Positions 22,726 to 63,546 of a stretch of 64,000 nt of DNA are shown in pieces. Under the pieces are notes generated by a model, which worked only from the letters and a program-made list of their open reading frames with translations, was not told the origin of the DNA and ran no database searches. Each line of letters opens with the position of its first letter. Positions within the stretch are counted from its first letter, which is position 1. The position numbers and the translations under genes are program-made. The stretch lies in NCBI RefSeq assembly GCF_041154505.1, contig NZ_AP028672.1, positions 3,822,501-3,886,500 on the forward strand, written 5' to 3'. Source of the DNA: Acidovorax sp. A79. Lineage in GTDB: Bacteria > Pseudomonadota > Gammaproteobacteria > Burkholderiales > Burkholderiaceae_C.

Positions 22726-23703
22726 ATGCACCGGCTTGTGCAATTGGCGCTCGACCTTTTCGACCCGCCGGCCGCACCGGTTGCGGCACCGGCGGCGCAG
22801 GCTTCAGGTTTCAAGCCTGGAGCGCCGCTGGCGCAGAATGATCAAGCGCTGGTAGCTCCTAAAACGATAGCAAGCGGGCCTGCGGCACCGGCGGTGCCCT
22901 TGCCGTCCCTGCTGTCCCCGGCCGAGTTCCGCCACCCGCAGGCCAGCCGCGAAGTGCTGCTGGGCGACGCCGTGGTCGCCTATGCGCTGCAGCGCGCACG
23001 GCGACGCACCATCGGCTTCACCGTGGGCGCGGATGGCCTGTCGGTGCGCGCGCCCAGCTGGGTGACCCTTTCGGCGGTGGACGCCGCGCTGCGCGACAAG
23101 TCGGACTGGATCCTGCGCAAGCTGTCGGAGGCCCGCGAGCGCCAGCAGCGCATGGAGGGCGGCCGCATCGTCTGGGCCCATGGCGCGGTGTTGCCGTACC
23201 TGGGCGAGCCGCTCACGGTGGTGCTGGACCCAAGCCATGGCTTTGCCGGCAGGGGCGGGGCGCTGGTGCCGTCCGCGCCGCCCTCGGCCGGGGAAGAGGG
23301 CATCGCCGTCGCCCGCAGCCTGCACATCGGCCTGCCCCACAGTGCCAGCGCCGCCCAGATCCGCGACGCCGTGCAGGCCTGGCTCATGCGCGATGCACGC
23401 CGCCACTTCACCGCGCGGCTGGACCACTTCGCCCCGCTGCTGGGGGTGCGCTGGGCCAGCCTGCGCCTGTCCAGCGCGCAGACCCGCTGGGGCAGCGCCA
23501 AGGCCGACGGCTCCATCCGCCTGAACTGGCGCCTGCTGCACTACCGCCCGGCCATCATCGACTATGTGGTGGCCCACGAGCTGGCCCACCTGCGCGTGAT
23601 GGACCACAGCCTGCGCTTCTGGGACACCGTGGCCACCGTGGTGCCCGACTACGCGGTGCTGCGCAGCCGCCTGCGCGATGAACCCGCTCCGCTGTGGGAG
23701 TGA
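22726..23703 (+). CDS. YgjP-like (DUF45) zinc metallopeptidase
   Basis: A 325-residue protein of the YgjP/WLM metallopeptidase family. The zinc-binding HELAH lies at residues 284-288 with a further His near 294 (VMDHS), after the typical TRWGSAKADGSIRLNWRLL. The substrate is unknown. The first 65 residues are a low-complexity Ala/Pro linker that includes PLAQNDQALVAPKTIAS, encoded by a palindromic element (copy E). ATG 22726 has a GGGGAG site upstream. Its position after plsC is common in Betaproteobacteria. Confidence 0.82.
   Translation: MHRLVQLALDLFDPPAAPVAAPAAQASGFKPGAPLAQNDQALVAPKTIASGPAAPAVPLPSLLSPAEFRHPQASREVLLGDAVVAYALQRARRRTIGFTVGADGLSVRAPSWVTLSAVDAALRDKSDWILRKLSEARERQQRMEGGRIVWAHGAVLPYLGEPLTVVLDPSHGFAGRGGALVPSAPPSAGEEGIAVARSLHIGLPHSASAAQIRDAVQAWLMRDARRHFTARLDHFAPLLGVRWASLRLSSAQTRWGSAKADGSIRLNWRLLHYRPAIIDYVVAHELAHLRVMDHSLRFWDTVATVVPDYAVLRSRLRDEPAPLWE
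22824..22871 (+). repeat. Translated palindromic element, copy E (in peptidase gene)
   Basis: GCCGCTGGCGCAG.ATG.TCAAGCG (22824-22848) recurs at 62934-62958 with two base differences. CTCCTAAAACGATAGC (22856-22871) is the reverse complement, with one mismatch, of GCTATTGTTTTAGGAG in the same kinase gene. It also shares ATGATCAAGCGCTGG and CTCCTAAAA with intergenic copy D. Confidence 0.8.
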
Positions 23704-23774
23704 CGCATTCGCCCCTGTGGCGGGCCGTGGGCCCGTCCCGTGGACCGGTTAACCGAGATGAAAGGAGCTAGCTG

Positions 23775-24194
23775 ATGACCATCCCGCAAACGATCACTCC
23801 CGCCGAAGGCTACGCGGGCGATGTCACGCCGCAGCAGGCCTGGCAGTGGATGCAGGCCGGCCAGGCCGTGCTGGTGGACGTGCGCAGCGACGCCGAACGC
23901 GAATGGGTGGGACAGGTGCCCGGGGGCGCCGCCGTGGCCTGGAAGCAGTGGCCAGGCATGGCCCTGAACGCCGGATTCGACACCCAGCTGCGCGCGGCCG
24001 CACCCGCCGGCGCCACGCTGGTGATGCTGTGCCGCAGCGGCGTGCGCTCCATCGCCGCGGCGCGACGCGCCACCGAACTGGGCTTCACGGCCTACAACAT
24101 CCTGGAAGGTTTCGAGGGAGATGCCGACGCCCAGGGCCAGCGCGGCAGGAAGGGCGGCTGGCGCTTTCACGGGCTGCCCTGGCGGCAAAACTGA
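23775..24194 (+). CDS. Rhodanese-like sulfurtransferase
   Basis: A 139-residue single rhodanese domain, presumably cytoplasmic, that would transfer sulfane sulfur via the active-site Cys in VMLCRSGVRSIAA near residue 78. The conserved VLVDVRSDAEREWVGQVPG precedes it. Single-domain rhodaneses act in sulfur trafficking or cyanide detoxification; the acceptor is not evident. An AAAGGAG ribosome-binding site lies upstream of ATG 23775. Confidence 0.9.
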   Translation: MTIPQTITPAEGYAGDVTPQQAWQWMQAGQAVLVDVRSDAEREWVGQVPGGAAVAWKQWPGMALNAGFDTQLRAAAPAGATLVMLCRSGVRSIAAARRATELGFTAYNILEGFEGDADAQGQRGRKGGWRFHGLPWRQN

Positions 24195-24228
24195 GAGACG
24201 ACCCGCCGGTGCGCGCGATGGGCGCGCC

Positions 24229-24262
24229 CAAAAAAAAGCGGGCCTGGTGGCCCGCTTGCCCG
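24229..24262 (-). terminator. Terminator of the BON-LysM gene
   Basis: The stem AGCGGGCC-TGGT-GGCCCGCT is bordered on its left by a run of A, which reads as poly-U on the - strand transcript coming from the gene at 24282-24764. Confidence 0.85.
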
Positions 24263-24281
24263 TCAGGACGTCTTGCCCTGC

Positions 24282-24764
24282 TCAAAGCGGCGGAATGCGC
24301 AGCTTCTGGCCGGGGTAGATCTTGTCGGGATGGGTCAGCATGGGCTTGTTGGCCTCGAAGATCGCGGGGTACTTGTTGGCGTCGCCATAGAACTTCTTGG
24401 CGATGGCGCTGAGCGTGTCGCCGCGCACCACGTCGTGGTACTGGGCCTCGGGCTCGGGATTGGTCACCTCCATCAGGTTCTCGACGCTGGTCACGCTGGC
24501 CACGTTGCCGCAGCACAGGGTGACTTTTTCCTTGGCGCCTTGCGTGGGGGCGGTGCCCTTCACGGTGACCTTGCCCTGCGTGCCGTCGAACGCCACCTGC
24601 ACGTTGCTGGCGCCCAGGTTCTGGGCCGCGATGTAGGTCTCGATGGCCTTGGCCGCCTTGGCATTGAGTTCATCCTGCGTGGGCGCAGCGGCCGTGGCTG
24701 CCTGGGCCTCCTTGCCGCCGAACAGCTTTTCGCCGGCTTCCTTGATGAAACTGAAAAGACCCAT
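24282..24764 (-). CDS. BON and LysM domain protein (Kbp/YgaU-like)
   Basis: A 160-residue protein beginning [20 protein letters not shown] domain (about residues 30-95, including [16 protein letters not shown]) is followed by a C-terminal LysM domain ([20 protein letters not shown] to [10 protein letters not shown]). E. coli YgaU (Kbp) has this architecture, binds K+ and is cytoplasmic. No signal peptide is seen here either. A textbook AGGAGGT lies before the ATG, suggesting good expression. Confidence 0.88.
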
Positions 24765-24941
24765 GTCGTACCTCCTAAAGTTGCAGAAACAGGAACGACC
24801 ACTGTAGCGTGCAAAGCGTGGCGCTGGTGTGTCGCACAGGCGCGCGAAACGATTTTTGACATTCTTTCCGCGCCATCCCGCCGCCGGCGCCTGTCGCCGC
24901 GGGTACGCGGGGGCGCCGCAAAACTCGGGATAATCCCCCGC

Positions 24942-25709
24942 ATGACATTTCTGGCCATCGACGTCGGCAACACCCGTCTCAAATGGGCGTTGTACGACGC
25001 TCCCCGCCCCGGGGCTGCGCTGCTGGCGCATGGCGCCGAGTTTCTGGACCACATCGACCGCCTGGCCGAGGGCAGCTGGGCGCCCTTGCCGCACCCCCAG
25101 CGCATGCTGGGGTGCGTGGTGGCGGGCGACGCCGTCAAGCGCCGGGTCGAGGAGCAGATGGAGATCTGGAACGTCGAGCCCTCGTGGGTGGTGTCGTCGG
25201 CGCAGGAGGCAGGCCTTGCCAACGGCTACGACCATCCCTCGCGCCTGGGCTCCGACCGGTGGGTCGCCATGGTCGGTGCGCGCCACCATGTGCTGCGCCA
25301 GGGCCCGGCGCGGCCGCTGGTGGTCGTCATGGTGGGCACGGCGGTCACGGTGGAGTGCATCGACACCGAGGGCCGGTTCATGGGCGGGCTCATCCTGCCG
25401 GGCCACGGCATCATGCTGCGCGCGCTGGAGTCCGGGACCGCCGGGCTGCACGTGCCCACGGGCGAGGTGCGCATGTTTCCCACCAACACCAGCGATGCCC
25501 TCACCAGCGGCGGCACCTATGCGATCGCGGGGGCCGTGGAGCGCATGGTGCAGCACGTCATCCAGCACTGCGGCGAGGAGCCGGCGTGCCTGATGACCGG
25601 CGGCGCGGGCTGGAAGATGGCGCCCAGCATGACGCGCCCTTTCGAACTGGTGGACAACCTGATCTTCGACGGCCTGCTGGAGATTGCCTTGCGCCGCTTT
25701 GCCGGCTGA
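24942..25709 (+). CDS. coaX: Type III pantothenate kinase
   Basis: It phosphorylates pantothenate, the first step of CoA synthesis. The 255-residue ASKHA-fold enzyme has the phosphate loop [13 protein letters not shown] at the N-terminus, the catalytic-Asp region [17 protein letters not shown], and the [14 protein letters not shown] and GGLILPG segments. No ribosome-binding site is visible; a GGATAAT lies about 9-15 bases before the ATG, which would fit a leaderless or very short-leader mRNA. The usual upstream birA gene is absent. Confidence 0.93.
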
Positions 25710-25810
25710 CCTGGAGCGCGCGGGCTTCGCGGCCCGGCCGCATTCCGCGGCGCCACGGGCGGTCCTGGATTTTCAGGACGGGCGCGGCCAGGCCAGGGGG
25801 TGTTCCGAAT

Positions 25811-26584
25811 TCAATCTTCCAGTTCGGCGCGCGCCATCTCCACGTCCAGGCGCTCCATCGCATCGGCGGGTTCGCTGGCGGCGGCCTTTTCGTAGAACCC
25901 GGTGGCTTCCTTCATCTTCTTGTCGCCTTCGAGCATGACCAGGGCGTTGGCGTATTCGATCATGCAGATGGCCGAGCCGGGGTTGAGCTTGAGGGCCTCC
26001 TGGAACAGCTTGAGTCCGGTGTCCTTCTTCGCGCCGTAGGTCATGCCGCCGATCAGCGAGCCCACCTTGTCGATCACCTCGGCATGGAATGCGCCCAGCG
26101 CGATGCGTGCATCGGCGTGCTTGGGCGACAGGGCGATGGCCTTCTCCAGCGATTCCTTCACCTTGCCGCCCAGGCCCTGTGCCAGCGCCTTGGCCACGCT
26201 GATGCCCTGGCTGTAGCGGCCCAGCGCGTAGGCGTGCCAGTACCAGGCATTGGCGTTGCCGGGCTCCGCCGCGGCCTGCGCCTCGGCGCGCTCCGCCACC
26301 TGGGTGAAGAGGTCGAGCCGGGTCTTTTCCCTTTGCTCCAGGTAGTTGGCGTAGATGGAGGCTGCCTTGTTGGCCACCGTGATGCCAGGGCCGCCGGCCG
26401 CCAGGCCGGCCGCCGCTGCCTTCTCGAAGTCGCCGTTGTGGAACATCGCCCAGGCTTCGAGCACCGCGGTGTCCTTGGGGCAGGGCTCGGCATCGCCGCT
26501 GTGCAGCCGGGCCCAGTGCTTCTTGACGCTCGCGGCGTCGAACGCATAGTCGCCTGCGTGGGGGAAGGGGGTCCATTTGGCCAT
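25811..26584 (-). CDS. TPR-repeat protein, function unknown
   Basis: A 257-residue soluble protein built of tetratricopeptide-like helical repeats (for example ANAWYWHAYALGRYSQG, LEKAIALSPKHADARIALG and LFQEALKLNPGSAICMIEYA). No enzymatic motif or signal peptide is visible. The arrangement resembles the RMD/FAM82-type TPR folds, but I would not transfer that function. It lies downstream of a TetR gene on the same strand with a 77-bp gap. Confidence 0.7.
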   Translation of the reverse strand: MAKWTPFPHAGDYAFDAASVKKHWARLHSGDAEPCPKDTAVLEAWAMFHNGDFEKAAAAGLAAGGPGITVANKAASIYANYLEQREKTRLDLFTQVAERAEAQAAAEPGNANAWYWHAYALGRYSQGISVAKALAQGLGGKVKESLEKAIALSPKHADARIALGAFHAEVIDKVGSLIGGMTYGAKKDTGLKLFQEALKLNPGSAICMIEYANALVMLEGDKKMKEATGFYEKAAASEPADAMERLDVEMARAELED

Positions 26585-26661
26585 GGTGTGTGTCTCCTGA
26601 AGTTCTTGTGGGAGGGGGGGGCCTGTCGTGCTGCCGTGAGGCGGGTGCTTGCTGCCTGCGC

Positions 26662-27324
26662 CTATCCCGGCGCAGCGGCGTAAGCGCCCACCAGCTCCAG
26701 CAGATGGGCCCGCTGGCTGCTTTCGAGGTAGGGCATGAGCAGGTTCAGCACATGGTGGGCGCCGCGCAGGAGCGCGGCCTGGGCGCTTTCAGGCTCCAGC
26801 GCGCGGCGCGGGTCGCGCACGTACTCGAAGCTCAGCCAGTAGGTCAGCACCACCACCATGCTGGTGGCGGTGGCTTCCAGCTCGCGCGAGTCGATGTGCA
26901 GGCTGTCCGCGCGGCCCATGCCATCGAGCATGGCGCGCACGGCCCGGGTCTTGTTCTTGAGGATGGCCTGGAAGTGGGTTTCCAGGCGCCGGTTCTTGGA
27001 CAGCAGGTCGTTCAGGTCGCGGTACAGGAAGCGGTACTGCCAGATCAGCTCGAACAGCGTGTGCATGAAGAACCAGGCATCCTCCACATTGCGCACGCCG
27101 TCACTGGCCGTGAGGAGTTCGGTGAGCGAGCGTTCGTAGCGGTCGAACAGCGCGTTGATCAGCTCATCCTTGGCGGGATAGTGGTAGTAGAGGTTGCCCG
27201 GGCTGATGCGCAGCTCGGCGGAAATCAGGGTGGTGGAGACGTTGGGTTCGCCGAACCGGTTGAACAGGTCCAGTGTCACTTCCAGAATGCGTTCTGCGGT
27301 GCGGCGTGGCGCTTTCTTCACCAT
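26662..27324 (-). CDS. TetR-family transcriptional regulator
   Basis: A 220-residue repressor-type protein. The N-terminal helix-turn-helix (about residues 12-55, including TTLISAELRISPGNLYYHYP) is followed by a larger helical effector domain. I chose ATG 27324 (MVKKAPRRTAERIL) because it gives a normal TetR start; an upstream ATG at 27414 adds an unconserved tail. Its neighbours, a phasin and a fatty acyl-CoA reductase, suggest control by an acyl-CoA or fatty acid, but no operator could be identified. Confidence 0.88.
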   Translation of the reverse strand: MVKKAPRRTAERILEVTLDLFNRFGEPNVSTTLISAELRISPGNLYYHYPAKDELINALFDRYERSLTELLTASDGVRNVEDAWFFMHTLFELIWQYRFLYRDLNDLLSKNRRLETHFQAILKNKTRAVRAMLDGMGRADSLHIDSRELEATATSMVVVLTYWLSFEYVRDPRRALEPESAQAALLRGAHHVLNLLMPYLESSQRAHLLELVGAYAAAPG

Positions 27325-27483
27325 GTGTGCGGGCCCCTTCGCGTCGTTTTGCGTCGTTGTTTCGATGTCTCTGGTGGTTACTCTAACCGACACAGAAATG
27401 CTGCACTGCGGCATCGCGCCTGCATATCAGCGCCGCTGCGTCCCTGTCGTGGGCGGCCTGGCGCGAGGGCGTGGGCTCCGGCC

Positions 27484-27528
27484 AAAAAAAGCGGCCAACA
27501 CGCTCTCGCGCGTTGGCCGCTTTTTTTT
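27484..27528. terminator. Bidirectional terminator downstream of the phasin gene
   Basis: AAAAAAA, then GCGGCCAAC with a short loop and GTTGGCCGC, then TTTTTTTT. The A and T tracts on both sides make it usable from either strand. On the - strand it ends the phasin transcript before the TetR gene. Confidence 0.92.
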
Positions 27529-27573
27529 CAGGGGCGGCACGGTGGTGTTGCCTGCCGCCTGCCTGATGTGCAA

Positions 27574-28176
27574 TCAGCTGCCCGATGGGGTGTTGGCGCC
27601 GGTGTCGGCTGCCGCGCGTGCGGCAGGCTTCTTGGCGGCGGCCTTCTTGGCCGGAGCGGCCTTGGCGGCGGGCTTTGCAGCCGCCTTGGCAGGGGCCGCC
27701 TTTTTCGCGGGGGCCTTCTTGGCCGGGGCCTTGGCGGCGGGCTTTGCGGCAGCTGCGGCCTTGGCGGGGGCTGCCTTGCCGCCCTTGGCCAGTGCATCCA
27801 CGCGGGCGCTCAGTGCCTGCAGGTCGCGGGCCGATGGCACGCCCAGCTTGGACAGGGCCTTGGCGACGCGGTCTTCAAAGATGTTCTCGAGCTTGTCCCA
27901 CTGGCCCTGGGCCTTGGAGCCGATGTCGCTGGCCATGGTGGTCACGCGGCTGGTGGCCTCGGTGATCTTTTCCTCGGCCACGGCCTGGGTCTTGCGCTGG
28001 ATGGTCAGGCCTTCCTTGACCAGGGCTTCGAACACCCGGCCGCCTTCTTCCTGCGCCTTGGAGAAGGCGCCCAGGCCCGCCAGCCAGATCTGCTGGGCGG
28101 AGTCCTTGACGGTGCTGGACAGTTGGGCGTTGCTCTTTTTCTTGTCGGCGCTGAGTTTCTGCAGTTTCTTGACCAT
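27574..28176 (-). CDS. PhaF/PhaI-like phasin with Lys/Ala/Pro-rich tail
   Basis: A 200-residue granule-associated protein. The first ~125 residues form an amphipathic helical phasin domain (STVKDSAQQIWLAGLGAFSK, then VFEALVKEGLTIQRKTQ). The C-terminal ~65 residues are repeats of the AAKPAAKAPAKKA type, resembling histone H1 and the DNA-binding tail of Pseudomonas PhaF. Such proteins coat polyhydroxyalkanoate granules and can tether them to the nucleoid. No PHA synthase gene is in the window. It is divergent from the fatty acyl-CoA reductase gene. Confidence 0.88.
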   Translation of the reverse strand: MVKKLQKLSADKKKSNAQLSSTVKDSAQQIWLAGLGAFSKAQEEGGRVFEALVKEGLTIQRKTQAVAEEKITEATSRVTTMASDIGSKAQGQWDKLENIFEDRVAKALSKLGVPSARDLQALSARVDALAKGGKAAPAKAAAAAKPAAKAPAKKAPAKKAAPAKAAAKPAAKAAPAKKAAAKKPAARAAADTGANTPSGS

Positions 28177-28274
28177 GGGGCCTCCGTTGTGCGGTTGGGT
28201 GGGTTTGCCAGGGCGGATTGCCTCTGACGCATGGCCGCACTGTACGCCGCGCGGCGCGCAAGGTGTAGGCGCGC

Positions 28275-28291
28275 GCTCCTAAAAATGTAGA
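28275..28291 (-). repeat. Fragment of the short palindromic element
   Basis: GCTCCTAAAAATG in the divergent phasin/reductase spacer matches the right end of copy D, with only a GCGCGC remnant before it. Otherwise the 227-bp spacer (28177-28403) should hold both promoters, and nothing more is recognisable. Confidence 0.45.
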
Positions 28292-28403
28292 GCGTGCCGT
28301 CTAGCCCGCGCCGGGCTGCGGGCCCTAGGATCGGCGCGGGTTTCTGCTGAATCGGTGCGCGCAGGCCTTGGGCAAGAATGAAGCTATCTCACAGGAGTTT
28401 TCC

Positions 28404-30392
28404 ATGCAGTATTTCGTGACGGGGGCAACGGGTTTCATTGGCAAGCGGCTGGTCAAGAAGCTGCTGGAGCGCAAGGGCGCGGTGGTGCATTTCCTGCTTC
28501 GCAAGGAAAGCGCGGACAAGGTGGCCGACCTGCGCAGCTTCTGGGGCGTGGGTGCCACGCGCGCCATTCCCGTGTTTGGCGACCTCACCGCGAAGAAGCT
28601 GGGTGTGGCTGCGGAAGACGTCAAGAAGCTCAAGGGGCAGATCGACCACTTCTACCACCTGGCCGCCGTGTATGACCTCTCCGCGGACGAGGAAACCCAG
28701 GTCGCCGTGAACATCGAGGGCACGCGCAACACGGTCGATCTGGCCAAGGCCATCGACGCCGGGCACTTCCACCACGTCTCGTCCATCGCTGCCGCGGGCC
28801 TGTATGAAGGCGTGTTCCGCGAGGACATGTTCGAGGAGGCCGAGGGCCTGGACCACCCGTACTTCCAGACCAAGCACGAGAGCGAGAAGATCGTGCGCCA
28901 GGACTGCAAGGTGCCCTGGACGGTGTACCGCCCCGCCATGGTGGTGGGCGACAGCACGACCGGCGAGATGGACAAGATCGACGGCCCGTATTACTTCTTC
29001 AAGCTCATCCAGCGCCTGCGCCAGCTGCTGCCGCCCTGGATGCCCACCGTGGGCCTGGAGGGCGGGCGCGTGAACATCGTGCCGGTGGACTTCGTGGTGA
29101 ACGCGCTCAACGTCATCAGCCACCAGAAGGACATCGGCAAGAAGTGCTTCCATCTGGTGGACCCGGTCGGCTACCGCGTGGGCGATGTGCTCGACATCTT
29201 CAGCCGCGCCGCGCATGCGCCGCGCATGAACCTGTTCGTCAACGCCGCGCTGCTCGGCTTCATCCCCAAGAGCATCAAGAAAAGCCTGATGGCCCTGGCG
29301 CCCGTGCGCCGCGTGCGCAATGCCGTCATGAAGGACCTGGGCCTGCCCGAGGACATGCTCACCTTCGTGAACTACCCCACGCGCTTTGACTGCCGCGAAA
29401 CGCTGGCGGCGCTCAAGGGCTCGGGCGTGACCTGCCCCAACCTCAAGGACTACGCCTGGCGCCTGTGGGACTACTGGGAGCGCAATCTTGATCCCGAGCT
29501 GTTCATCGACCGCACGCTCAAGGGCACGGTGGCGGGCAAGGTCGTGCTGATCACCGGGGGGTCTTCGGGCATCGGCCTGGCGGCGGCGCACAAGTTCGCC
29601 GAGGCGGGTGCGACCACCATCATTTGCGGGCGTGACCAGGACAAGCTCGACGAGGCGTGCGCGGAGGCCAAGGCCAAGGGCTACGCCTTCATCGCGTATT
29701 CGGCCGACATCGCCGACATGACCGATTGCGACCGCTTCGTGCAGCTGCTGATCGACAACCACGGCGGCGTGGACTTCCTGATCAATAACGCGGGCCGCTC
29801 CATCCGCCGTGCCATCGAGTCGAGCTACGACCGCTTCCACGACTACGAGCGCACCATGCAGCTCAACTACTTCGGCTGCCTGCGCGTGACCATGGGCTTT
29901 CTGCCCGGCATGGTGGCCAAGCGCAAGGGCCATGTGGTCAACATCAGCTCCATCGGCGTGCTGACCAACGCGCCGCGCTTTTCGGCCTATGTGGCCAGCA
30001 AGGCGGCGCTGGATGCCTGGACACGCTGCGCATCGAGCGAGTTCGCCGACCAGGGCATCACCTTCACTACCATCAACATGCCGCTGGTGCGCACGCCCAT
30101 GATCGCGCCCACCAAGATCTACAACAACGTGCCCACGCTGAGCCCCGAGGAGGCGGCCGACATGATCGCCCAGGCCTGCATCTTCAAGCCGGTGCGCATC
30201 GCCACGCGCCTGGGCATCACCGGCCAGCTGCTGCATGCGCTGGTGCCCCGCGTGGCGCAGATCACGATGAACACCAGCTTTCGCATGTTCCCGGATTCCA
30301 CCGCCGCCGCCAAGGGTGACAAGGGCGCCAAGCCGCAGCTGTCGGCCGAGGCGGTGGCGCTGCAGCAGATGATGCGCGGCATCCACTTCTGA
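28404..30392 (+). CDS. Two-domain fatty acyl-CoA reductase (alcohol-forming type)
   Basis: A 662-residue protein with two fused reductase domains. The N-terminal male-sterility/FAR-type Rossmann domain starts FVTGATGFIG (residues 4-13) with Tyr153-x3-Lys157. The C-terminal classical SDR domain has TGGSSGIG near residue 387, NNAGRSIRR, and YVASK near residue 529. The layout, length and long identical stretches (for example REDMFEEAEGLDHPY and ISSIGVLTNAPRFSAYV) recall the Marinobacter enzyme Maqu_2220, which reduces fatty acyl-CoA through aldehyde to fatty alcohol. A CAGGAG site precedes ATG 28404. No wax ester synthase gene is nearby. Confidence 0.85.
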   Translation: MQYFVTGATGFIGKRLVKKLLERKGAVVHFLLRKESADKVADLRSFWGVGATRAIPVFGDLTAKKLGVAAEDVKKLKGQIDHFYHLAAVYDLSADEETQVAVNIEGTRNTVDLAKAIDAGHFHHVSSIAAAGLYEGVFREDMFEEAEGLDHPYFQTKHESEKIVRQDCKVPWTVYRPAMVVGDSTTGEMDKIDGPYYFFKLIQRLRQLLPPWMPTVGLEGGRVNIVPVDFVVNALNVISHQKDIGKKCFHLVDPVGYRVGDVLDIFSRAAHAPRMNLFVNAALLGFIPKSIKKSLMALAPVRRVRNAVMKDLGLPEDMLTFVNYPTRFDCRETLAALKGSGVTCPNLKDYAWRLWDYWERNLDPELFIDRTLKGTVAGKVVLITGGSSGIGLAAAHKFAEAGATTIICGRDQDKLDEACAEAKAKGYAFIAYSADIADMTDCDRFVQLLIDNHGGVDFLINNAGRSIRRAIESSYDRFHDYERTMQLNYFGCLRVTMGFLPGMVAKRKGHVVNISSIGVLTNAPRFSAYVASKAALDAWTRCASSEFADQGITFTTINMPLVRTPMIAPTKIYNNVPTLSPEEAADMIAQACIFKPVRIATRLGITGQLLHALVPRVAQITMNTSFRMFPDSTAAAKGDKGAKPQLSAEAVALQQMMRGIHF

Positions 30393-30433
30393 CGACCGTC
30401 CGGCCCGCGCAGATGCCCATGCGTTGAACTCTG

Positions 30434-30463
30434 TTACCTGGTGGCCGGGCAGGGTGGGATAAT
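30434..30463 (+). promoter_or_regulatory. Candidate sigma-70 promoter of the rhamnose operon
   Basis: TTACCT (30434-30439) and GATAAT (30458-30463) are separated by 18 bp and lie about 40 bp before the rfbB start, in the only sizeable gap ahead of the operon. Confidence 0.5.
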
Positions 30464-30503
30464 CGCGGGTTCTGCCGAGCTGGCATTTCACACAGCCCTC
30501 CCT

Positions 30504-31598: not shown

Positions 31599-32485
31599 AC
31601 ATCCTGCTCTTTGGCAAGGGCGGCCAGGTCGGGTGGGAGCTGCAGCGCAGCCTGTCCTTGCTGGGCACGGTAACGGCCCTGGACCATGACAGCACCGACC
31701 ACTGCGGCGACTTTGCCAACCCGGCAGGGGTGGTCGACACGGTGCGCGCCCTGCGCCCCGACGTCATCGTCAATGCCGCGGCCCATACCGCCGTGGACAG
31801 GGCCGAGAGCGAGGCCGACTTTGCGCGCACGCTCAATGCCACCACTCCCGGCGCCATCGCGCAGGAGGCTGCGCGGCTGGGCGCCTGGCTGGTGCACTAC
31901 AGCACCGACTATGTGTTCGACGGCAGCGGCCGCCGCCCCTGGGTGGAGACCGATGCGCCTGCCCCGTTGAGCGTCTACGGCCGCACCAAGCTCGAAGGCG
32001 AGCAGCTGATCGCAGAGGCCGGTGCCAAGCACCTGATCCTGCGCACCAGCTGGGTCTACGCCGCGCGCGGCGGCAACTTCGCCAAGACCATGCTGCGCCT
32101 GGCCCAGGAGCGCAATCGCCTGACCGTCATCGATGACCAGTGGGGAGCCCCCACCGGCGCGGACCTGCTGGCGGATGTGACCGCCCATGCACTGCGCCAC
32201 CTGCAGCAGCGCCCGCAGGACGCCGGGCTCTACCACTGCGTGGCGGCCGGCGAGACGAACTGGAACGAATACGCAAAATACGTTCTTGCGCAAGCACAGC
32301 TTGTACAACCTGCTATTGAAATCAAAGCAAAAGAAGTGGCGCCAGTTCCGACAAGCGCATTCCCCACCCCTGCGGTGCGCCCTCACAACTCGCGCTTGAA
32401 CACAGGCAAGCTGCAGGCCGCCTTTGGCCTGCAGATGCCGCCTTGGCAGTCTGGCGTGGCGCGCATGCTGGCTGAAACTCTCTGA
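31595..32485 (+). CDS. rfbD: dTDP-4-dehydrorhamnose reductase
   Basis: Final NAD(P)H-dependent step that yields dTDP-L-rhamnose. The 296-residue SDR protein has [14 protein letters not shown] at the N-terminus, [10 protein letters not shown], and Tyr-x3-Lys in [12 protein letters not shown]. The stretch [18 protein letters not shown] (codons from 32282) is A/T-rich compared with the rest of the gene and resembles the translated palindromic elements. It sits just before the conserved [13 protein letters not shown] segment, so the core fold is intact. Confidence 0.95.
32282..32328 (+). repeat. Possible translated element inside rfbD
   Basis: CTTGCGCAAGCACAG...CCTGCTATTGAAATC (32285-32319) is A/T-rich against its surroundings. 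It gives [13 protein letters not shown], with the same LAQ......AI spacing and frame as copies E/F/G, and ends in GCTATTGAAATCAAAGC, an imperfect dyad like those of the other copies. The nucleotide match is weaker than for E and F. Confidence 0.35.
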
Positions 32486-32498
32486 ACGGCACCTGACC

Positions 32499-33383: not shown

Positions 33384-33389
33384 ACCGCC

Positions 33390-36135: not shown

Positions 36136-36207
36136 TTCGCCCCTGCGGGTGATGCAAATCATGCCTGGGTATTTTGGTTGTTGAAAGAATGTTCAAAGGC
36201 GTCGGTA

Positions 36208-47192: not shown

Positions 47193-47279
47193 ATTGCATC
47201 AACCCAAACGGAGTACGGATGGGTTGCAGATCCCGCACAGGGTGGGAAAGCTTCCTTCAATTATCTAAGGACTGAGAAG

Positions 47280-48242: not shown

Positions 48243-48314
48243 TTTTCTTGACATGCGCGGCGGTTTACGCTGTGCATAAAAAAGAAAAGCAAGTGGCCCC
48301 ACTGGGGTTGCTCC

Positions 48315-48347
48315 AAAAAAATGGCGCCGTTCGGCGCCATTTTTTTT
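48315..48347 (+). terminator. Perfect terminator of the surface protein gene
   Basis: AAAAAAATGGCGCC-GTTC-GGCGCCATTTTTTT: a fully symmetrical stem with A and T tracts. It isolates the highly expressed gene from the lipoprotein gene downstream. Confidence 0.95.
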
Positions 48348-48364
48348 GCATGTCTGGGGTCTCT

Positions 48365-49477: not shown

Positions 49478-49500
49478 ATTTGTTTTTTGTAGTTATTTCT

Positions 49501-50394: not shown

Positions 50395-50553
50395 TTGCCT
50401 CAAAATCAGCGACCAGGGTAGTGTAGTCGTGCTTTGGAGGGGCGCAGTACAATGGTCGGTTTTGCGGATTGCGATGGCATCGTTGCTAGAAGGCGCAATC
50501 TGACGATCAGGCGCATAGCGCCCTCTTTCTAGTGAGACCCTGCAGCTCTGCCA

Positions 50554-51531: not shown

Positions 51532-51533
51532 CC

Positions 51534-54498: not shown

Positions 54499-54502
54499 CG
54501 CC

Positions 54503-56619: not shown

Positions 56620-57629
56620 CCAATATTGAGCGATACGACTACGCATTCGATCCGGACGGCGAGGAGTGGGCCGCCCGGTTGCTGCGCCGTATTCCGTCCG
56701 ACGGAGGCTCGGTGCTGGAACTGGGCCCCGGGCCCGGGGCCATGACCCGTGTCCTGCTGGCGCGGGGCCATCGCGTCACGGTGGTTGAAAACGACCCCGA
56801 AGCACTGGAGGTGCTCAAGACGCTGGGCGTGGAGGTCATTCCCGGAAATCTGGATGGCACGGACTGGCTGGATGCGATCGCGGGCAGGCGGTTTGATGCG
56901 GTGATGGCCTGCGATGTGCTGGAGCACCTCAGAAAACCGGAGGACGTGCTGCAGCGGTTGAGCGAATTTGTGGCCCCCATGGGCCGCCTGCTGATCTCCG
57001 TCCCGAACATTGCCTATGCCGGGGTGCTGGCGGCGATGCGCAATGGCATCTTCGACTACTCGGACAAGGGCCAGCTGGACAGGACCCATGTCCGGTTCTT
57101 TACCAAGCGCAGCATTGAAAAAGTACTGCTGGACTGCGGGTGGGCTCCCCGGATCTGGGAGGCCAACAGGGTGCCTGTCGAATGCAGCGAATTCGCCTGG
57201 TACTGGAGCGCCCTGCCCGGCGAGCAGCGCCAGGCCTTGCTGGCGGGGTGGCAGGATTTCGATGTGTACCAGTGGATGGTGGTGGTCACGCCCTCCATCG
57301 ACGCTTCCGCCTGGGAGTTGTCCGAAGCACGTGGCACAGCGGACAGGCTGCGCGACGAGTTGCAGGCACTCACGGTGGTGCACCAGCGTGAGCGCGCATC
57401 GTTGCTGGAGCACCAGAAAGCCTTTTCGGAAGCCAAGGAAATCATCGCGAAGATGCAGCTGGAGATCAAGGATCTGCGCACCGACATGGAACTGCTGCGG
57501 ACGGAAAAGACCGCGGTGGAGGCCGAACTCTCCGCGCTGCAAGCGCAGCCCCAGCCCGAACCTCCTCCTCCTGCAGGCCCATGGCTGCGGCTGCAGCGCA
57601 GACTCCTGGGCCGCGCGGACGGCGCGTGA
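56616..57629 (+). CDS. SAM-dependent methyltransferase with C-terminal coiled coil
   Basis: A 337-residue protein. The class I methyltransferase domain (1-230) has motif I VLELGPGPGAMT near residue 33, VMACDVLEHLRKPEDV and LISVPNIAY. From about residue 235 to 315 is a long heptad-like coiled coil (LRDELQALTVVHQRERASLL, DLRTDMELLRTEKTAVEAEL) followed by a Pro/Arg-rich basic tail. In Wzm/Wzt systems a coiled-coil methyltransferase (WbdD) caps the chain and sets its length. By analogy, this protein may be the chain terminator for the Wzt encoded upstream. Confidence 0.82.
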   Translation: MTNIERYDYAFDPDGEEWAARLLRRIPSDGGSVLELGPGPGAMTRVLLARGHRVTVVENDPEALEVLKTLGVEVIPGNLDGTDWLDAIAGRRFDAVMACDVLEHLRKPEDVLQRLSEFVAPMGRLLISVPNIAYAGVLAAMRNGIFDYSDKGQLDRTHVRFFTKRSIEKVLLDCGWAPRIWEANRVPVECSEFAWYWSALPGEQRQALLAGWQDFDVYQWMVVVTPSIDASAWELSEARGTADRLRDELQALTVVHQRERASLLEHQKAFSEAKEIIAKMQLEIKDLRTDMELLRTEKTAVEAELSALQAQPQPEPPPPAGPWLRLQRRLLGRADGA

Positions 57630-58288
57630 CGGATTGCGGAACGGACATGTTGCTCGGGGTTCCTGATTTCACGGCATCGCATGACGGCGTGGACAGCATC
57701 GGTGCGGATTGCCGGATCGATTCGTCCGTTTCCGTCATGCGGTTTGGGCAGCGCCCTGGCGTGCTGTGCCTGTCGGACGGGGTCAGCATCTACGCGCAGA
57801 CAAGGCTGGTGCTGGGGGATGTGGTCGCGGACCCTTGCGTGGGAATCCGCATCGGCGCCCGCACCATTGTCAACGTGGGCGGCTATCTGTCTGGCGAAGG
57901 GGGCTTGGAGATTGGCGAGGACGTTTTGATCGGCCCCCACGTCAAGTTGCTGTCGGCCGGCCACGCCATAGACGAAGGGGATGCGGTCATCGCGCGCAAC
58001 CGCATCACCCGCGCAAAGATCGTCGTGGAGGACGGCGCCTGGATAGGGGCCGGAGCCATCGTGCTCGAGGGGGTTACCATCGGGCGCGGCGCGGTGGTGG
58101 CCGCCGGCGCGCTTGTGCGGCAGGATGTCCCCGCGGGGATGGTGGCGGCGGGAATGCCCGCTCGGCTGCTGCGCTCGCGCCGTGGGGATGCATGGCCGGC
58201 GGCACTGGCCCCCGTGCCATCCACCTGGTTTGAACGGGTCGGGGTCCGGCTGAAGAGCTTCTTGTACCAGGGACGCGGTGCCAAATGA
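57626..58288 (+). CDS. Left-handed beta-helix acyltransferase
   Basis: A 220-residue hexapeptide-repeat protein of the WbbJ/maltose acetyltransferase type (GGLEIGEDVLIGPHVKLLSAGH, IVVEDGAWIGAGAIVLEGV, ending VVAAGALVRQDVPAGMVAAG). Catalytic His is probably in LLSAGHAID. It likely O-acetylates a sugar of the exported glycan. GTG 57626 overlaps the preceding stop; ATG 57647 is an alternative start. Confidence 0.82.
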   Translation: MTDCGTDMLLGVPDFTASHDGVDSIGADCRIDSSVSVMRFGQRPGVLCLSDGVSIYAQTRLVLGDVVADPCVGIRIGARTIVNVGGYLSGEGGLEIGEDVLIGPHVKLLSAGHAIDEGDAVIARNRITRAKIVVEDGAWIGAGAIVLEGVTIGRGAVVAAGALVRQDVPAGMVAAGMPARLLRSRRGDAWPAALAPVPSTWFERVGVRLKSFLYQGRGAK

Positions 58289-58992
58289 CAAGCAAGAGTG
58301 AATTTCGCAGAAGCTCCGACGGGCGCGGATGGGGATCGAACATGGTGGAAAGCCTGCGCAGGGCGGCGATTACAGTGATCTTCCTGATGGGACTCCCTGC
58401 CTCTTCCTGGGCCGACCAGGTGTGGGAGTTCGTGGACAAGGATGGAGTGACCCACATTGGCAACGTGGCGCCGGGGGCGGCCGCGTCGCGGGGGCTGGTC
58501 TGGCTCCAACGTGTGCCTCCTGCCTCCGTGATGAGGAGCAAGGAGCGCGGCACCTCCGCACTGCAGTTTCCTGGCTACGACGATGTCAAGCAGCACCTGG
58601 AGGCGGCGGCGGAGGCGCAGTCGCTGGATCCGGCATTCGTGATCGCCGTTGCCGCTGCGGAATCGGCCTTCAATGTGAAGGCCGTTTCGCGCAAGGGCGC
58701 CCTGGGCTTGATGCAGGTGATGCCCGCGACCGCCGAGCGCTATGGGGTCGCGGCCCGTCCGCCTTCAGAGGGAGAACATGCCGCCATGGAGCCCAAGGTG
58801 AATGCGCAGATCGGCACACGCTATCTGGCGGACCTGCTGCGCATGTTCGATGGCGACAAGGAGCTGGCGCTGGCGGCCTACAACGCCGGGGAAGGAGCCG
58901 TGATCAAGCATGGCCGCCGGATTCCGCCATATCCCGAAACACAGCAGTACGTGGAAAAGGTGATGCGCTTTTACCGCGGTCTGGCCCGGTAG
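58285..58992 (+). CDS. SLT-type lytic transglycosylase with DUF4124 segment
   Basis: A 235-residue exported protein. A signal peptide (about residues 24-43, ending SSWA) and a short DUF4124-like stretch (VWEFVDKDGVTHIGN) precede a family 1 transglycosylase domain: catalytic Glu in AAAESAF, then GLMQVMPATAERYG and AAYNAGEGAV. It cleaves peptidoglycan and may open gaps for envelope-spanning export or secretion complexes. It overlaps the acyltransferase by 4 bp. The 220 bp after it show no gene. Confidence 0.9.
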   Translation: MTSKSEFRRSSDGRGWGSNMVESLRRAAITVIFLMGLPASSWADQVWEFVDKDGVTHIGNVAPGAAASRGLVWLQRVPPASVMRSKERGTSALQFPGYDDVKQHLEAAAEAQSLDPAFVIAVAAAESAFNVKAVSRKGALGLMQVMPATAERYGVAARPPSEGEHAAMEPKVNAQIGTRYLADLLRMFDGDKELALAAYNAGEGAVIKHGRRIPPYPETQQYVEKVMRFYRGLAR

Positions 58993-59211
58993 TGGCCCTG
59001 GATCGGGCAGCGTGGGCTTTTCCGTGATCCGTCGGTGCCTGCGTTGGCCTGCTGGGTGGGGTCCGTGCGTGGGCACCCAGGGCGCCACTTCCGGCTTCCT
59101 GCAGTGGGGGGCCGTATTCCAAGCCAACCGCATGGGGCTGCCGGTGCGGGTGGCGCCAGCTAGCGCTTTCTTACAGGCATCCGCGCAGAGTACGGGTACC
59201 ATCGGCCGCTC

Positions 59212-60315
59212 ATGATCTGGTTATCTGTGGTGGCATTCATCGTTGCAGCGTTGGCGGCAGGGTTCATCGTGCGGTGGATGCGCAGCCACGCTTCCGTGTA
59301 TGGCAGCAGCATGCCGCAGCGGTTTCACCTCGGGGATATTCCCCGCCTGGGCGGGGCCGCGCTGCTGTTGGGTATCGCGTGCAGCTGGAGCCTGGGCATG
59401 CTGCAGTCGTCCCATTGGGGAGATCCTGGTTCCCTCAGGCTGGGGGCGTGGGTCGGCGGCTGGCTGGTGGTCTTGCTGCCGGCTGCTCTGGGGGGGATCG
59501 CGGAGGACATGACCCAGCGCCTGTCCGTCCGGTATCGGTTAAGCCTGACGGGCGCGTCCGGTGCCCTGGCGGTGGTGTTGCTGGACCTGTCCCTGCCCCG
59601 CATGGGGTGGCCCTGGCTGGACTCCGTGCTGGCCGCTGCCCCGTGGCTGGGCATCGCCATCGTTGTACTTGCCGTTGCGGGGCTGCCCCACGCGTTCAAC
59701 ATCATCGACGGCTACAACGGCCTGGCGGGCATGGTTGCACTGATCGTGTGCCTGGCCTTGGCGCACGTGGCATTGCAGGTGGGGGATCGCGCCCTGGCGG
59801 CGCTGCTGGTGTCCACCGCCGCCGCCACCGGGGGATTCCTGGTGTGGAACTACCCGCGGGGAATGCTGTTTGCCGGCGATGGCGGGGCGTATATCTGGGG
59901 CGTGGTCATCGCCTTGGCCAGCATTTCGCTGGTGCAGCGCAATGCCGACGTGTCGCCCTGGTTCCCCATGCTTTTGCTGATCTACCCTGTCTGGGAAACG
60001 ATCTTCTCGATCTATCGCAAGACGGTGCGGGGCGTGTCACCCGGCGTGGCCGATGCACTGCATTTTCACCAGCTGATCTACCGGCGCATCGTGCGGGGCG
60101 TTTTCCACGACGACGAATCCCGCAGGGTGCTGATGCGCAACAACCGCACATCGCCCTACCTCTGGGGCTTCACCTTGCTCACGGTGGTGCCGGCGGTGCT
60201 GTTCTGGAGCAATACCCCGCTGCTGATGGCGTTTTGCGGCTTGTTCGTCATCAGCTATGTGATGGCGTACCTTGCCATCGTGCGGTTCAAGGTGCCGCAC
60301 TGGCTGCGCCACTGA
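59212..60315 (+). CDS. WecA/MraY-family glycan-initiating transferase
   Basis: A 367-residue polytopic membrane protein of the polyprenyl-phosphate N-acetylhexosamine-1-phosphate transferase family, with about ten hydrophobic segments. Motifs: LGDIPRLGG near the N-terminus, GGIAEDMTQRLSVRYRL, FNIIDGYNGLAG and FAGDGGAY, ending with an HFHQLIYRR basic loop. It would place the first sugar phosphate on undecaprenyl phosphate and so start the glycan exported by Wzm/Wzt. It lies just after the glycan operon in the same orientation. Confidence 0.88.
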   Translation: MIWLSVVAFIVAALAAGFIVRWMRSHASVYGSSMPQRFHLGDIPRLGGAALLLGIACSWSLGMLQSSHWGDPGSLRLGAWVGGWLVVLLPAALGGIAEDMTQRLSVRYRLSLTGASGALAVVLLDLSLPRMGWPWLDSVLAAAPWLGIAIVVLAVAGLPHAFNIIDGYNGLAGMVALIVCLALAHVALQVGDRALAALLVSTAAATGGFLVWNYPRGMLFAGDGGAYIWGVVIALASISLVQRNADVSPWFPMLLLIYPVWETIFSIYRKTVRGVSPGVADALHFHQLIYRRIVRGVFHDDESRRVLMRNNRTSPYLWGFTLLTVVPAVLFWSNTPLLMAFCGLFVISYVMAYLAIVRFKVPHWLRH

Positions 60316-60399
60316 GGGCTGTTGCGCAGGCCACCCCAGGGTGCCGCGCGAATGCGGCACAATTTGCGCCTCACCGTTTTCTCTGGATGGCCCGCCTCC

Positions 60400-61290
60400 A
60401 TGACCGACCTTCTTTCGATTGCTCCGCGCGACAAGGCTGAAATCCTGGCCCAGGCGCTGCCCTACATCCGCAAGTTCCATGGCAAGACCATGGTCATCAA
60501 ATACGGTGGCAACGCCATGACGGACCCTGCGCTGCAGGCCGACTTTGCCGAAGACGTGGTGCTGCTCAAGCTCGTGGGGATGAACCCCGTGGTGGTCCAC
60601 GGCGGAGGCCCGCAGATCGAGACGGCCCTGAACCGCCTGGGCAAGAAGGGCGAGTTCATCCAGGGCATGCGCGTGACGGACGCCGAGACCATGGAAGTGG
60701 TCGAGTGGGTGCTGGCCGGCGAGGTGCAGCAGGACATCGTGGGCCTGATCAACCAGGCCGGCGGCAAGGCCGTGGGGCTCACGGGCCGCGACGGCGGCAT
60801 GATCCGCGCGCAGAAGCTCAAGATGGTGGACAACAAGAACCCGAGCATCGAGCACGACGTGGGCCAGGTGGGGGACATCGTGGCCATCGACCCGAGCGTG
60901 GTCAAGGCGCTGCAGGACGATGCCTTCATCCCCGTCATCAGCCCCATCGGCTTCGGCGAAAACAACGAGAGCTACAACATCAACGCCGACGTGGTGGCCA
61001 GCAAGCTGGCCACGGTGCTGCAAGCTGAAAAACTCATGCTCCTGACCAACACGCCCGGCGTGCTGGACAAGGCGGGCAACCTGCTCACCGACCTCACGGC
61101 CCGCGAGATCGACGCGTTGTTCGCCGATGGCACCATCTCCGGCGGCATGCTGCCCAAGATCGCGGGCGCGCTCGATGCCGCCAAGGCCGGCGTGCACGCC
61201 GTGCACATCATCGATGGCCGTGTGCCGCATGCCATGCTGCTCGAAATCCTGACCGACCAGGCCTACGGGACCATGATCCGCTCGCATTGA
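60400..61290 (+). CDS. argB: Acetylglutamate kinase
   Basis: Second step of arginine synthesis, phosphorylating N-acetylglutamate. The 296-residue amino-acid kinase shows [31 protein letters not shown], and [18 protein letters not shown] 60400 gives the normal N-terminus. In many Comamonadaceae argB is followed by slmA; here a two-component pair sits between them. Confidence 0.96.
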
Positions 61291-61309
61291 CCCTTTTTCG
61301 TAGCCTGCT

Positions 61310-62002
<693 letters not shown>

Positions 62003-62046
62003 GCGGAATCGGTCTGGCTCAGCGCCCGCGCCGGTGAAGACCCACC

Positions 62047-63546
62047 ATGACGATGCCGGACCGGGCCCCTCCTTCCCAGCGGCTTGGCCTGCGCGCCATG
62101 ACCTCCGACCTGCGCAACCGGCTGCTGCTTTTGCTGGTGCTGCCCTTGTGCCTGCTCGCGCTCGCGGGCGTGTGGCTGGACTACCGCTCGGCCGATGAGG
62201 CCGCCGGACGGCATGACCAGCGCCTGCTGCGGCTGCTTCCGGCGCTGGCCGATTCGGTACTGGCACCCGCGATCCGTGACAACGAGCCGCCCCTGCTGCT
62301 GCTGGCGCCGCCGGTCGAGGACTTCCTGCGCCAGAACGCCGGGTTTGCCGGGTACAGCGTGCGCGACGCCTCCGGCCGCCTGCTGCTGGGGGACGACTGG
62401 GTGCACAGCGCCGTGCCGACCACGCAGGCCCCCGAATTCCACAGCGTCGAATTTGGCGGCGTGACCTACCGGGTGGCCGTGCAGCGCGGCCGCACGGGGG
62501 CCGGCGAGCTGGTGGTGGCGCTGGCCGACGGGTCGGACCCGCGCCAGCAGTGGGCGCAGCAGCTTCTGCTGCGCGTGCTGCTGCCCAACCTGGTGCTCGT
62601 GGCCGCCGCCGCGCTGGCCATCCACTGGGCCGTGGGGCGTGCATTCAAGCCGCTGGTGGATCTGGCCGAAGCGGTGGAGCACCGCTCGCCGCGCGATCTC
62701 AGCCCCATCGACGAGGCCTCGTCGCCCGCCGAGGTGCGCCCGCTCGTGCATTCGCTCAACCGGCTGTTCGCGTTGGTCAATGCGCAGGCGGAAGGGCAGC
62801 GCCGCTTCGTGGCCGACGCGGCGCACCAGCTGCGCACCCCGCTGGCGGGCCTGCAGGCGCAGGTCGAGGCCTGGGCGATGATGGCCAAGGCCGCCGGCCC
62901 GCGGGTATCGCTGCCGGATTTTGATCGACAAATGCCGCTGGCGCAGGATGGTCAAGCGAAAGGCGCTATTGTTTTAGGAGTTGATCAGATCGAGAAGCTG
63001 CGCAATGCCACGCGCCGGACCTCGCAGCTCGCGCACCAGCTGCTGGCCCTGTCGCGCGCCGACGCGCGCAGCCTGGATGCGCAGCCGCCGCAGCGCGTGG
63101 ACCTGAAGGACCTGTGCGAGGCGCTGCTCGAGACCTTTCTCGATCCGGCCACCGGCAAGGGGCTGGACCTGGGGCTCGACGTGCAGCCCGTGCATGTCAC
63201 CGGCCATGGCTGGCTGCTGCGCGAATTGCTGTCCAACCTGGTGGACAACGCCATCAAGTACACGCCGGCGGGGGGCATTGTCACCATCCGCTGCGGCATG
63301 CGCCAGGGGCGCACCGGGCCACCCCGCGTGTACCTGGAGGTCGAGGACGACGGCCCGGGCGTGCCCGAGGCGGAGCGCGCCCGCGTCATGCAGCGCTTTT
63401 ACCGCGTGCCTGGCACGGTGGGGGAGGGCACGGGCCTGGGGCTGGCCATCGCCGACGAGATCGCGCGCGTGCACCGCGCCTCCCTGACGCTCGGGACGGG
63501 CCCCCAGGGGCACGGGCTGCTGGTGGCTGTGGTGTTTCCGCTGTAG
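62047..63546 (+). CDS. Sensor histidine kinase (TctE-like, 2CSK_N)
   Basis: A 499-residue inner-membrane kinase. Transmembrane helices lie at about 23-42 and 172-195 and flank a 2CSK_N periplasmic sensor. The H-box FVADAAHQLRTPLAGL gives the phosphorylated His260. N-box LSNLVDNAIKYTPAGG and G-boxes EVEDDGPGVP and GEGTGLGLAI follow. Between the two helices of the dimerisation domain is an inserted segment (about 284-312) containing MPLAQDGQAKGAIVLGV, which is encoded by a palindromic element. Confidence 0.93.
   Translation: MTMPDRAPPSQRLGLRAMTSDLRNRLLLLLVLPLCLLALAGVWLDYRSADEAAGRHDQRLLRLLPALADSVLAPAIRDNEPPLLLLAPPVEDFLRQNAGFAGYSVRDASGRLLLGDDWVHSAVPTTQAPEFHSVEFGGVTYRVAVQRGRTGAGELVVALADGSDPRQQWAQQLLLRVLLPNLVLVAAAALAIHWAVGRAFKPLVDLAEAVEHRSPRDLSPIDEASSPAEVRPLVHSLNRLFALVNAQAEGQRRFVADAAHQLRTPLAGLQAQVEAWAMMAKAAGPRVSLPDFDRQMPLAQDGQAKGAIVLGVDQIEKLRNATRRTSQLAHQLLALSRADARSLDAQPPQRVDLKDLCEALLETFLDPATGKGLDLGLDVQPVHVTGHGWLLRELLSNLVDNAIKYTPAGGIVTIRCGMRQGRTGPPRVYLEVEDDGPGVPEAERARVMQRFYRVPGTVGEGTGLGLAIADEIARVHRASLTLGTGPQGHGLLVAVVFPL
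62934..62980 (+). repeat. Translated palindromic element, copy F (in histidine kinase)
   Basis: GCCGCTGGCGCAG.ATG.TCAAGCG is shared with the peptidase gene copy E, and GCTATTGTTTTAGGAG is close to that in lnt. The element keeps the frame and adds residues between the two dimerisation helices of the kinase. Neighbouring codons are strongly GC-rich; this stretch is not. Confidence 0.8.

Follow-up and report, generated by a model that had tools for sequence, protein, structure and literature searches.

A long bipartite palindrome dispersed through Acidovorax genomes is probably a DNA recognition signal formed in place within native genes

A window of DNA from Acidovorax sp. A79 (contig NZ_AP028672.1, positions 3,822,501 to 3,886,500; "the window" is this whole stretch of 64,000 nucleotides) carries seven full-length copies of a palindromic repeat of ~65 bp, three of which lie inside the genes for an apolipoprotein N-acyltransferase (lnt), a metallopeptidase-like protein and a sensor histidine kinase. 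The repeat is used on either strand and irrespective of context, it occurs free of insertion in native coding DNA, and its presence depends on the lineage. Together, these properties point to a genome-wide DNA recognition signal of the Comamonadaceae, which probably formed in place in native genes and is kept by a putative trans-acting factor. We hypothesize that this factor recognizes the motif as double-stranded DNA. Within genes, the motif would arise by base substitution in linkers and loops that tolerate it, and selection or drive would then hold it, such that codons and some amino acids of the host protein would be dictated by the DNA. Genomes that are poor in the motif would have lost the signal.

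A repeat family spread through the genome

The host genome (G000; 5.87 Mb in two contigs) was searched with two models; the close named relatives of the window's proteins are for the most part Acidovorax. R1 is a profile trained on 35 copies, including those in lnt and the kinase and three further copies inside genes or at gene starts. R2 is a plain sequence model of the 30 best copies; it excludes all in-gene copies of the window and includes the window's copy at 21749 as well as five copies inside caller-predicted genes (L053, L054, L056, L059 and L070). Because the training set of R1 held the lnt, kinase and other in-gene copies, significance was taken from R2, with E-values computed over an 864-kb sample made up of the window and 40 evenly spaced stretches of 20 kb. 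R1 finds the seven full-length copies of the window and at least 150 in the genome. A weight matrix of the same 30 copies marks 89 places in the 864 kb at a score of 18, and none in the reversed sequence of that sample even at a score of 14. Extrapolated to the genome, this gives an estimated total of ~600 copies per 5.9 Mb, or about one per 10 kb.

Each unit consists of a 5' GGCC block, a palindrome AGCGCTTG-N5-CAAGCGCT and an AT palindrome GCTATTnnTTTnnTAGC, with ~23 bp between the centres of the two palindromes. The consensus, GGATTTTGAGTnAAATTGGCCTCCAGCGCTTGTTnATCAAGCGCTAGCAGCTATTAATTTnATAGCATT, contains two dyads centred at columns 36 and 59, about two helical turns apart, and the GC content of most full-length copies is 33-56%. 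Copies are spread evenly over 300-kb bins (the largest gap among the 149 best places is 202 kb, with ~191 kb expected), and eight occur in the 80 kb sampled from the second replicon. Neither a gap at the terminus nor a strand bias is visible among 149 of the 150 R1 places, the one on contig C2 having been left out. Of the 83 copies in bins one to ten, 42 are on the plus strand, as are 37 of the 66 in the last nine. Only on the assumption, made here, that the contig begins at the origin does this argue against a replication-strand signal. BLASTN against phage records, a weak test, returned no match. A strict pattern is absent from viral contigs and likewise from the 864-kb sample of the host genome; a looser one matches 42 stretches of viral contigs versus 12 places in the 864 kb, and no inference is drawn from it. 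In an open-licence library, no paper contains the motif strings tried, and no description of the family appears among the papers listed.

A preliminary description of the window had reported a short palindromic repeat translated in one frame inside unrelated proteins, and the strings that it quoted are present: gccgctggcgcagaatgatcaagcg in the peptidase at 22824-22848, gccgctggcgcaggatggtcaagcg in the kinase at 62934-62958, and GCTATTGTTTT(A/C)GGAG as an exact match at 62965-62980 and 12219-12234, with the inverted module of the peptidase on the minus strand at 22856-22871 (one mismatch). At up to three mismatches, GCTATTGTTTT(A/C)GGAG has four matches, compared with 0.57 expected by shuffling. 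These strings belong to a genuine repeat family, as lnt, the peptidase and the kinase each hold a full-length copy that R2, trained without them, recognizes at E 1e-6 to 1e-5, and the four intergenic copies of the window are built of the same modules. The stretch in RfbD, which had been suggested as a further copy, did not hold up: it has no R1 or R2 match at E 1, and 36 of 5000 recodings reach it in the synonymous test described below. Its profile score of -9.9 nevertheless exceeds that of all 300 random 240-bp pieces from the same region (maximum -19.9), so it is possibly an eroded copy.

Reading frame and gene context

The stop-free sense frame of the consensus translates to PPALVHQALAAINLIA, which is why PLAQ..QA..AIVLG recurs in unrelated proteins. 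The lnt, peptidase and kinase copies all use this frame, which has no stop in the palindromes, as do 7 of the 10 sense in-gene copies in the sample, or 8 of 11 once the peptidase copy is added by its coordinates (genes were called by a rough codon-usage caller, which missed the peptidase N-terminus). By these calls the 89 sampled copies divide into 57 that are intergenic, 17 on gene edges and 15 within genes, the last comprising ten sense and five antisense copies. Over-representation is strong in coding and non-coding DNA alike, as in uptake sequences, and as a dispersed palindromic repeat lying in frame inside unrelated genes the family resembles the Rickettsia palindromic elements. Intergenic gaps of 40-400 bp hold a copy without preference for gene orientation (30/207 tandem, 14/87 divergent and 11/68 convergent gaps). 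Copies lie within 30 bp of a neighbouring gene's 3' end in 34 of 61 cases and of a 5' end in 25 of 67.

Distribution among relatives

At E 1e-5, R1 matches 34 of 60 relatives, all of them belonging to the genus, of which 36 genomes were searched, and none of the 24 genomes from other families of the order (the best 84 candidates at most were scored per genome, under strict filters). Within the family, 200 genomes were sampled, with no more than the best 25 candidates scored in each; matches occur in 52 of these, from 42 of 141 genera. Five genomes of the genus are motif-poor, namely G001 and G030 (0 copies each), G031 (1), G004 (3) and G029 (22); the other 31, the motif-rich genomes, have from 35 to at least 84 copies each. 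Because the motif-poor genomes occupy three separate places in a three-gene tree (midpoint root, few genes, motif columns unmasked), repeated loss of the family within the genus is suggested.

G029 is intermediate. Along with its 22 copies, its lnt copy is still spelled and its kinase copy is recoded, possibly the family caught during decay.

Constraint on codons and amino acids

Across orthologues, the motif appears to steer the codons and some of the amino acids of its host proteins. In the synonymous test, codons were redrawn at random with the usage of this genome while the protein was held constant. The window copies score z = 7.0 (kinase), 6.7 (peptidase) and 5.2 (lnt), and none of 5000 recodings reaches any of them. 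The in-gene copies of this genome had been chosen by score, which inflates their z values, and the orthologues are therefore the fairer test. In motif-rich genomes the mean z is 5.2 for lnt (n = 26), 5.9 for the kinase (n = 26) and 6.0 (n = 28) for the beta subunit of methylcrotonyl-CoA carboxylase, whose gene holds a further copy outside the window. The values for the motif-poor genomes are 2.4 (G001), -0.7 (G031), 0.2 (G004) and 4.8 (G029) in lnt; -1.0 (G031), -0.8 (G004) and 1.9 (G029) in the kinase; and 3.7 (G001), 1.2 (G030), 1.0 (G004) and -0.5 (G031) in the carboxylase. Among 400 random coding 70-mers, the mean z is -0.19 (sd 1.03, maximum 3.84), and two reach 3 or more.

The same signal is visible in individual codons. 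GCT ATT GTT in the kinase is identical in 26 of 26 motif-rich species, although each is a minority codon in the host, with a share of 0.13, 0.17 and 0.15, respectively, for its amino acid (the kinase fragment L132 was dropped from this comparison, from the rare-codon count and from the synonymous test). In G004, G031 and G029, identical or nearly identical kinase residues are encoded by GC-rich codons; the residues GAIVLG, for instance, are also present in G004 and G031, in ordinary GC-rich spelling, which speaks against their arrival as an in-frame insertion. Codon columns with a rare codon in 80% or more of motif-rich species are concentrated in the motif in both window genes for which they were counted: 7 of 10 such columns (among 490) fall within the 23 motif codons of the kinase, and 8 of 14 (among 489) within the 24 motif codons of lnt (Fisher p ~2e-8 in each).

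Drift in GC content was considered as a cause of the recoding in motif-poor genomes and rejected: GC at third codon positions of the kinase gene is 0.95 in G023 and G007, which have the motif, versus 0.91 in G004 and 0.88 in G031, which do not.

Scores of at least 18 are reached in 23 of 26 motif-rich genomes for the kinase and in 27 of 28 for the carboxylase. The mean score of the recoded sequences measures what the protein alone permits. For the kinase it ranges from -11.5 to -35.8 in the 26 rich genomes versus -50 to -52 in three poor ones, and for the carboxylase from -9.8 to -35.8 in the 28 rich versus -38 to -70 in four poor ones. In lnt, rich (-16 to -71) and poor genomes (-34 to -56) overlap, and the pull on amino acids is therefore clear at only two of the three genes, the kinase and the carboxylase. 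Part of this difference could also stem from common ancestry among the poor genomes.

Probable formation in place within genes

In lnt, the distance between anchors on either side of the motif is the same in all 14 syntenic genomes, the motif-free G031 and G001 among them. No gap occurs at the site among the best 120 Lnt homologues (of 7999 reported), one of which is the window's own protein, and the structurally characterized Lnt 5n6m, far from being shorter, has two more residues there. At this fixed position the profile score rises to 50 in G006 and 48 in G024. The carboxylase copy is gap-free in 41 of 41 aligned sequences (32 from the genus plus 9 of the 80 named loci, together ranging from motif-rich species to Massilia and Cupriavidus) and against structure 3u9r. 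Among 57 of the 80 named carboxylase records, seven have small indels near the site: +5 in L288, +2 in L291 and single-residue gaps in L309, L319, L320, L325 and L328. RarA, which also bears a copy, is not longer than its structural match. We take 5n6m and 3u9r to be structures from P. aeruginosa, and two others, 4ppz and 3pvs, to be from Neisseria and E. coli, respectively.

The remaining two window genes are compatible with either origin. The kinase loop is ~25 residues longer than in QseC, and a loop of similar length occurs in all 29 genus orthologues, including three that lack the motif (L126 and L131, where the anchor was not found, fall outside the codon display; most of the 121 rows of the kinase alignment, which comprises the best 120 of 6536 reported homologues, were viewed), so that an old insertion there is possible. 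The peptidase site sits in a length-variable linker and does not discriminate.

Since length is unchanged at both sites, we reject insertion for lnt and for the carboxylase. The preliminary description had likened the repeat to Rickettsia-type elements that insert into proteins, and it is this part of its interpretation that the orthologues, compared by the refutation test which it had itself proposed, contradict; as a whole, that interpretation is partly supported. Like an uptake sequence, the motif occurs in native coding sequence without insertion and is favoured at synonymous sites. Outside genes, the intergenic copy at 21749 holds its position: each of the 12 other motif-rich syntenic genomes has it between the two genes that flank it in the window.

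Possible mechanisms

We tentatively regard an uptake-type signal as the likeliest mechanism. By analogy with known systems, the motif would be spread and restored because DNA that bears it is preferentially taken up and recombined. We know of no third family for which uptake sequences have been established. Those described are named for two families, the Pasteurellaceae and Neisseriaceae (PMC7811141). According to one account they number from hundreds to thousands and are over-represented in intergenic and coding DNA in either orientation, with one orientation commoner in genes, and the Neisseria DNA uptake sequence (DUS) occurs almost 1,500 times per genome (PMC2346458); others argue for their accumulation through mutation and uptake bias (PMC1939737) and report that they come in dialects (PMC3630211). 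Like the DUS and the uptake signal sequence (USS) of Pasteurellaceae, the Acidovorax motif is abundant in coding and intergenic DNA in both orientations. Unlike these denser signals of ~10-12 bp, it is long, bipartite and palindromic, and its conserved columns span ~50 bp instead of a short core. Because length, dyad symmetry and low density differ, we claim resemblance to uptake sequences, not membership among them. If the reader were the DNA-uptake machinery, this would be a further uptake-sequence system, independently evolved and with a different architecture.

Second in likelihood, and already somewhat doubtful, is a variant that overlaps with the proposed recognition signal: the copies may be binding sites of a chromosome-organizing or nucleoid protein, each directly selected and with no role in uptake. 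The spacing of the dyads, the even spread of copies and their presence on the second replicon would suit such a protein. However, no such factor is known, and individual selection of ~600 long sites is a demanding assumption.

It is conceivable, though we would not yet bet on it, that the Comamonadaceae have an undescribed self-recognition code. A long bipartite palindrome, recurring roughly every 10 kb, would be imposed on native genes by substitution and would reshape their proteins, and some lineages would have lost it along with its reader. If true, drive and selection could be tested against each other in a fresh lineage that includes natural losses.

Counter-evidence and less probable alternatives

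Several observations weigh against a recognition signal formed in place. Most copies are intergenic or at gene edges, where gain by insertion may apply, and G031 and G001, where the gap is ~35 nt shorter, lack the copy at 21749, so that intergenic gain or loss by insertion or deletion is possible. Some in-gene sites do differ in length: the five extra carboxylase residues occur in a Variovorax strain whose motif is weak (score 14), and DapE exceeds its structural match by eight residues at the position of its copy. The signal is also less uniform than the proposal would lead one to expect. Only 10 of 26 motif-rich genomes reach a score of 18 in lnt, the rest keeping mainly the AT part and some having negative scores, down to -32.7; the peptidase of motif-rich G015 is free of the motif; in G029 the lnt signal persists despite the loss of that in the kinase, and G001 retains a trace in both lnt and the carboxylase. 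A diverged dialect that escapes R1 may be in use in motif-poor genomes, and the species are related, so that the per-genome tests lack independence. Finally, the length, density and dyad symmetry of the repeat suit a dimeric DNA-binding protein at least equally well.

A selfish repeat, either of the repetitive extragenic palindromic type with its associated tyrosine transposase (REP/RAYT) or a miniature inverted-repeat transposable element, is improbable. Here the intergenic copies would have transposed and the coding copies would be old and slowly decaying, an idea to which the palindromic form, the largely intergenic location, the closeness to 3' ends and the shorter 21749 gap in motif-free genomes all lend something. 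However, orthologous copies keep their modules and synonymous spelling throughout the genus, and coding copies that can be tested show no insertion. Moreover, the transposase domain Y1_Tnp does not track the family in the 36 genomes: motif-free G001 has one, motif-rich G018 (82% complete) has no match, and the 12-kb stretch around the single Y1_Tnp gene of G000 has 0 copies.

More improbable still is a mobile repeat like the Rickettsia palindromic elements that was inserted in frame into proteins and then decayed. In partial agreement with it, the family is dispersed, its in-gene copies mostly share one frame, and extra length is found in the kinase loop, DapE and the Variovorax carboxylase; against it, length is constant in lnt and in the aligned carboxylases, RarA is not longer, and nucleotide spelling is conserved instead of decaying. 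These elements and intragenic REPs have been described as dispersed palindromic families inside unrelated genes (PMC3733652). As described, they are insertions that lengthen the protein by added residues, whereas the Acidovorax motif shows no insertion at decidable sites.

An RNA-level element (terminator, mRNA stabilizer or small RNA) conserved as a hairpin is the least probable of all: the consensus could form an 18-pair stem and copies often lie close behind genes, but there is no covariation (438 and 393 of 500 shuffles reach the observed score), tandem, convergent and divergent gaps are used equally, antisense in-gene copies exist, and no Rfam match occurs in the window at gathering thresholds.

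A related repeat and a protein family

The Beta-proteobacterial repeat element (BRE) has been described from Comamonadaceae and Bordetella as usually intergenic, with some copies in genes; it is ~90 bp long, averages 69% GC in Bordetella, is sometimes tandem, and reaches at most 29 copies per genome, with one in Acidovorax sp. JS42 (PMC3110155). The Acidovorax motif is shorter and lower in GC, and is set apart here by the traits described for the BRE, not by its sequence.

The first ~25 positions of the Pfam family DUF1010 (PF06231) look like the translated motif. In the window genome, four of four DUF1010 matches coincide with same-strand copies, one of the four scoring over the Pfam cut-off. 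The motif does not extend to the later part of the model, to which some matches in other genomes are confined. We therefore offer a warning for annotation, in that stretches of protein sequence may mirror a DNA signal instead of a protein function: the motif may have cast its shadow on part of DUF1010 and on similar-looking peptides in unrelated proteins.

Annotated DUF1010 genes on resistance plasmids contain a copy. In the one such region inspected, on plasmid pBH3a of Brevundimonas sp. BH3, the gene (L357:2399-2689) adjoins aminoglycoside-resistance genes, suggesting an integron-like cassette of Comamonadaceae origin.

Copies in the window and minor observations

Table 1. Repeat copies in the window, their host genes and the RfbD stretch.
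Feature	Position	Strand	Remarks
Intergenic copy	3065..3134	+	R2 38.0 bits
Intergenic copy	3937..4006	-	R2 29.0 bits
Intergenic copy	9953..10022	-	R2 22.9 bits, E 4.6e-5
Host gene, apolipoprotein N-acyltransferase (lnt)	11817..13436	+	PDB match 5n6m
In-gene copy, lnt	12169..12238	+	R2 25.3 bits, E 8.5e-6
Canonical intergenic copy	21749..21818	-	Matched by R1 and R2; belongs to R2 training set
Host open frame, metallopeptidase-like protein	22630..23703	+	Named from the preliminary description and the HELAH motif, not from a family search
In-gene copy, N-terminal linker of metallopeptidase-like protein (PLAQNDQALVAPKTIA)	22805..22874	+	R2 27.4 bits, E 1.9e-6
RfbD stretch, not a significant copy	32262..32331	+	Score -9.9; synonymous test 36/5000
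Host gene, sensor histidine kinase	62047..63546	+	TctE-like by source names
In-gene copy, sensor histidine kinase, loop between two DHp helices (PLAQDGQAKGAIVLG)	62915..62984	+	R2 27.9 bits, E 1.3e-6

Orthologues suggest that the true start of the metallopeptidase-like protein is the ATG at 22726. At the peptidase loci L134-L155, many relatives have an extra intergenic copy on the other side of the gene, which the window genome does not.

The ~40 kb of the window from 22875 to 62914, which include a lower-GC region, hold no copy, and the two lowest-GC chromosomal stretches of the sample are also free of copies. This is expected if acquired DNA is without the signal. Contrary to that idea, a stretch of the second replicon with 61.9% GC holds four copies.

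Two further copies lie at gene starts (L039:1447-1545 and L029:1483-1545). Their frames, ..ALVAIVLVASGSAFAQ and ..AVAAIVLVAGALPAWAQ, resemble by eye the hydrophobic core of a signal peptide, and the motif may have had a part in forming signal peptides there.

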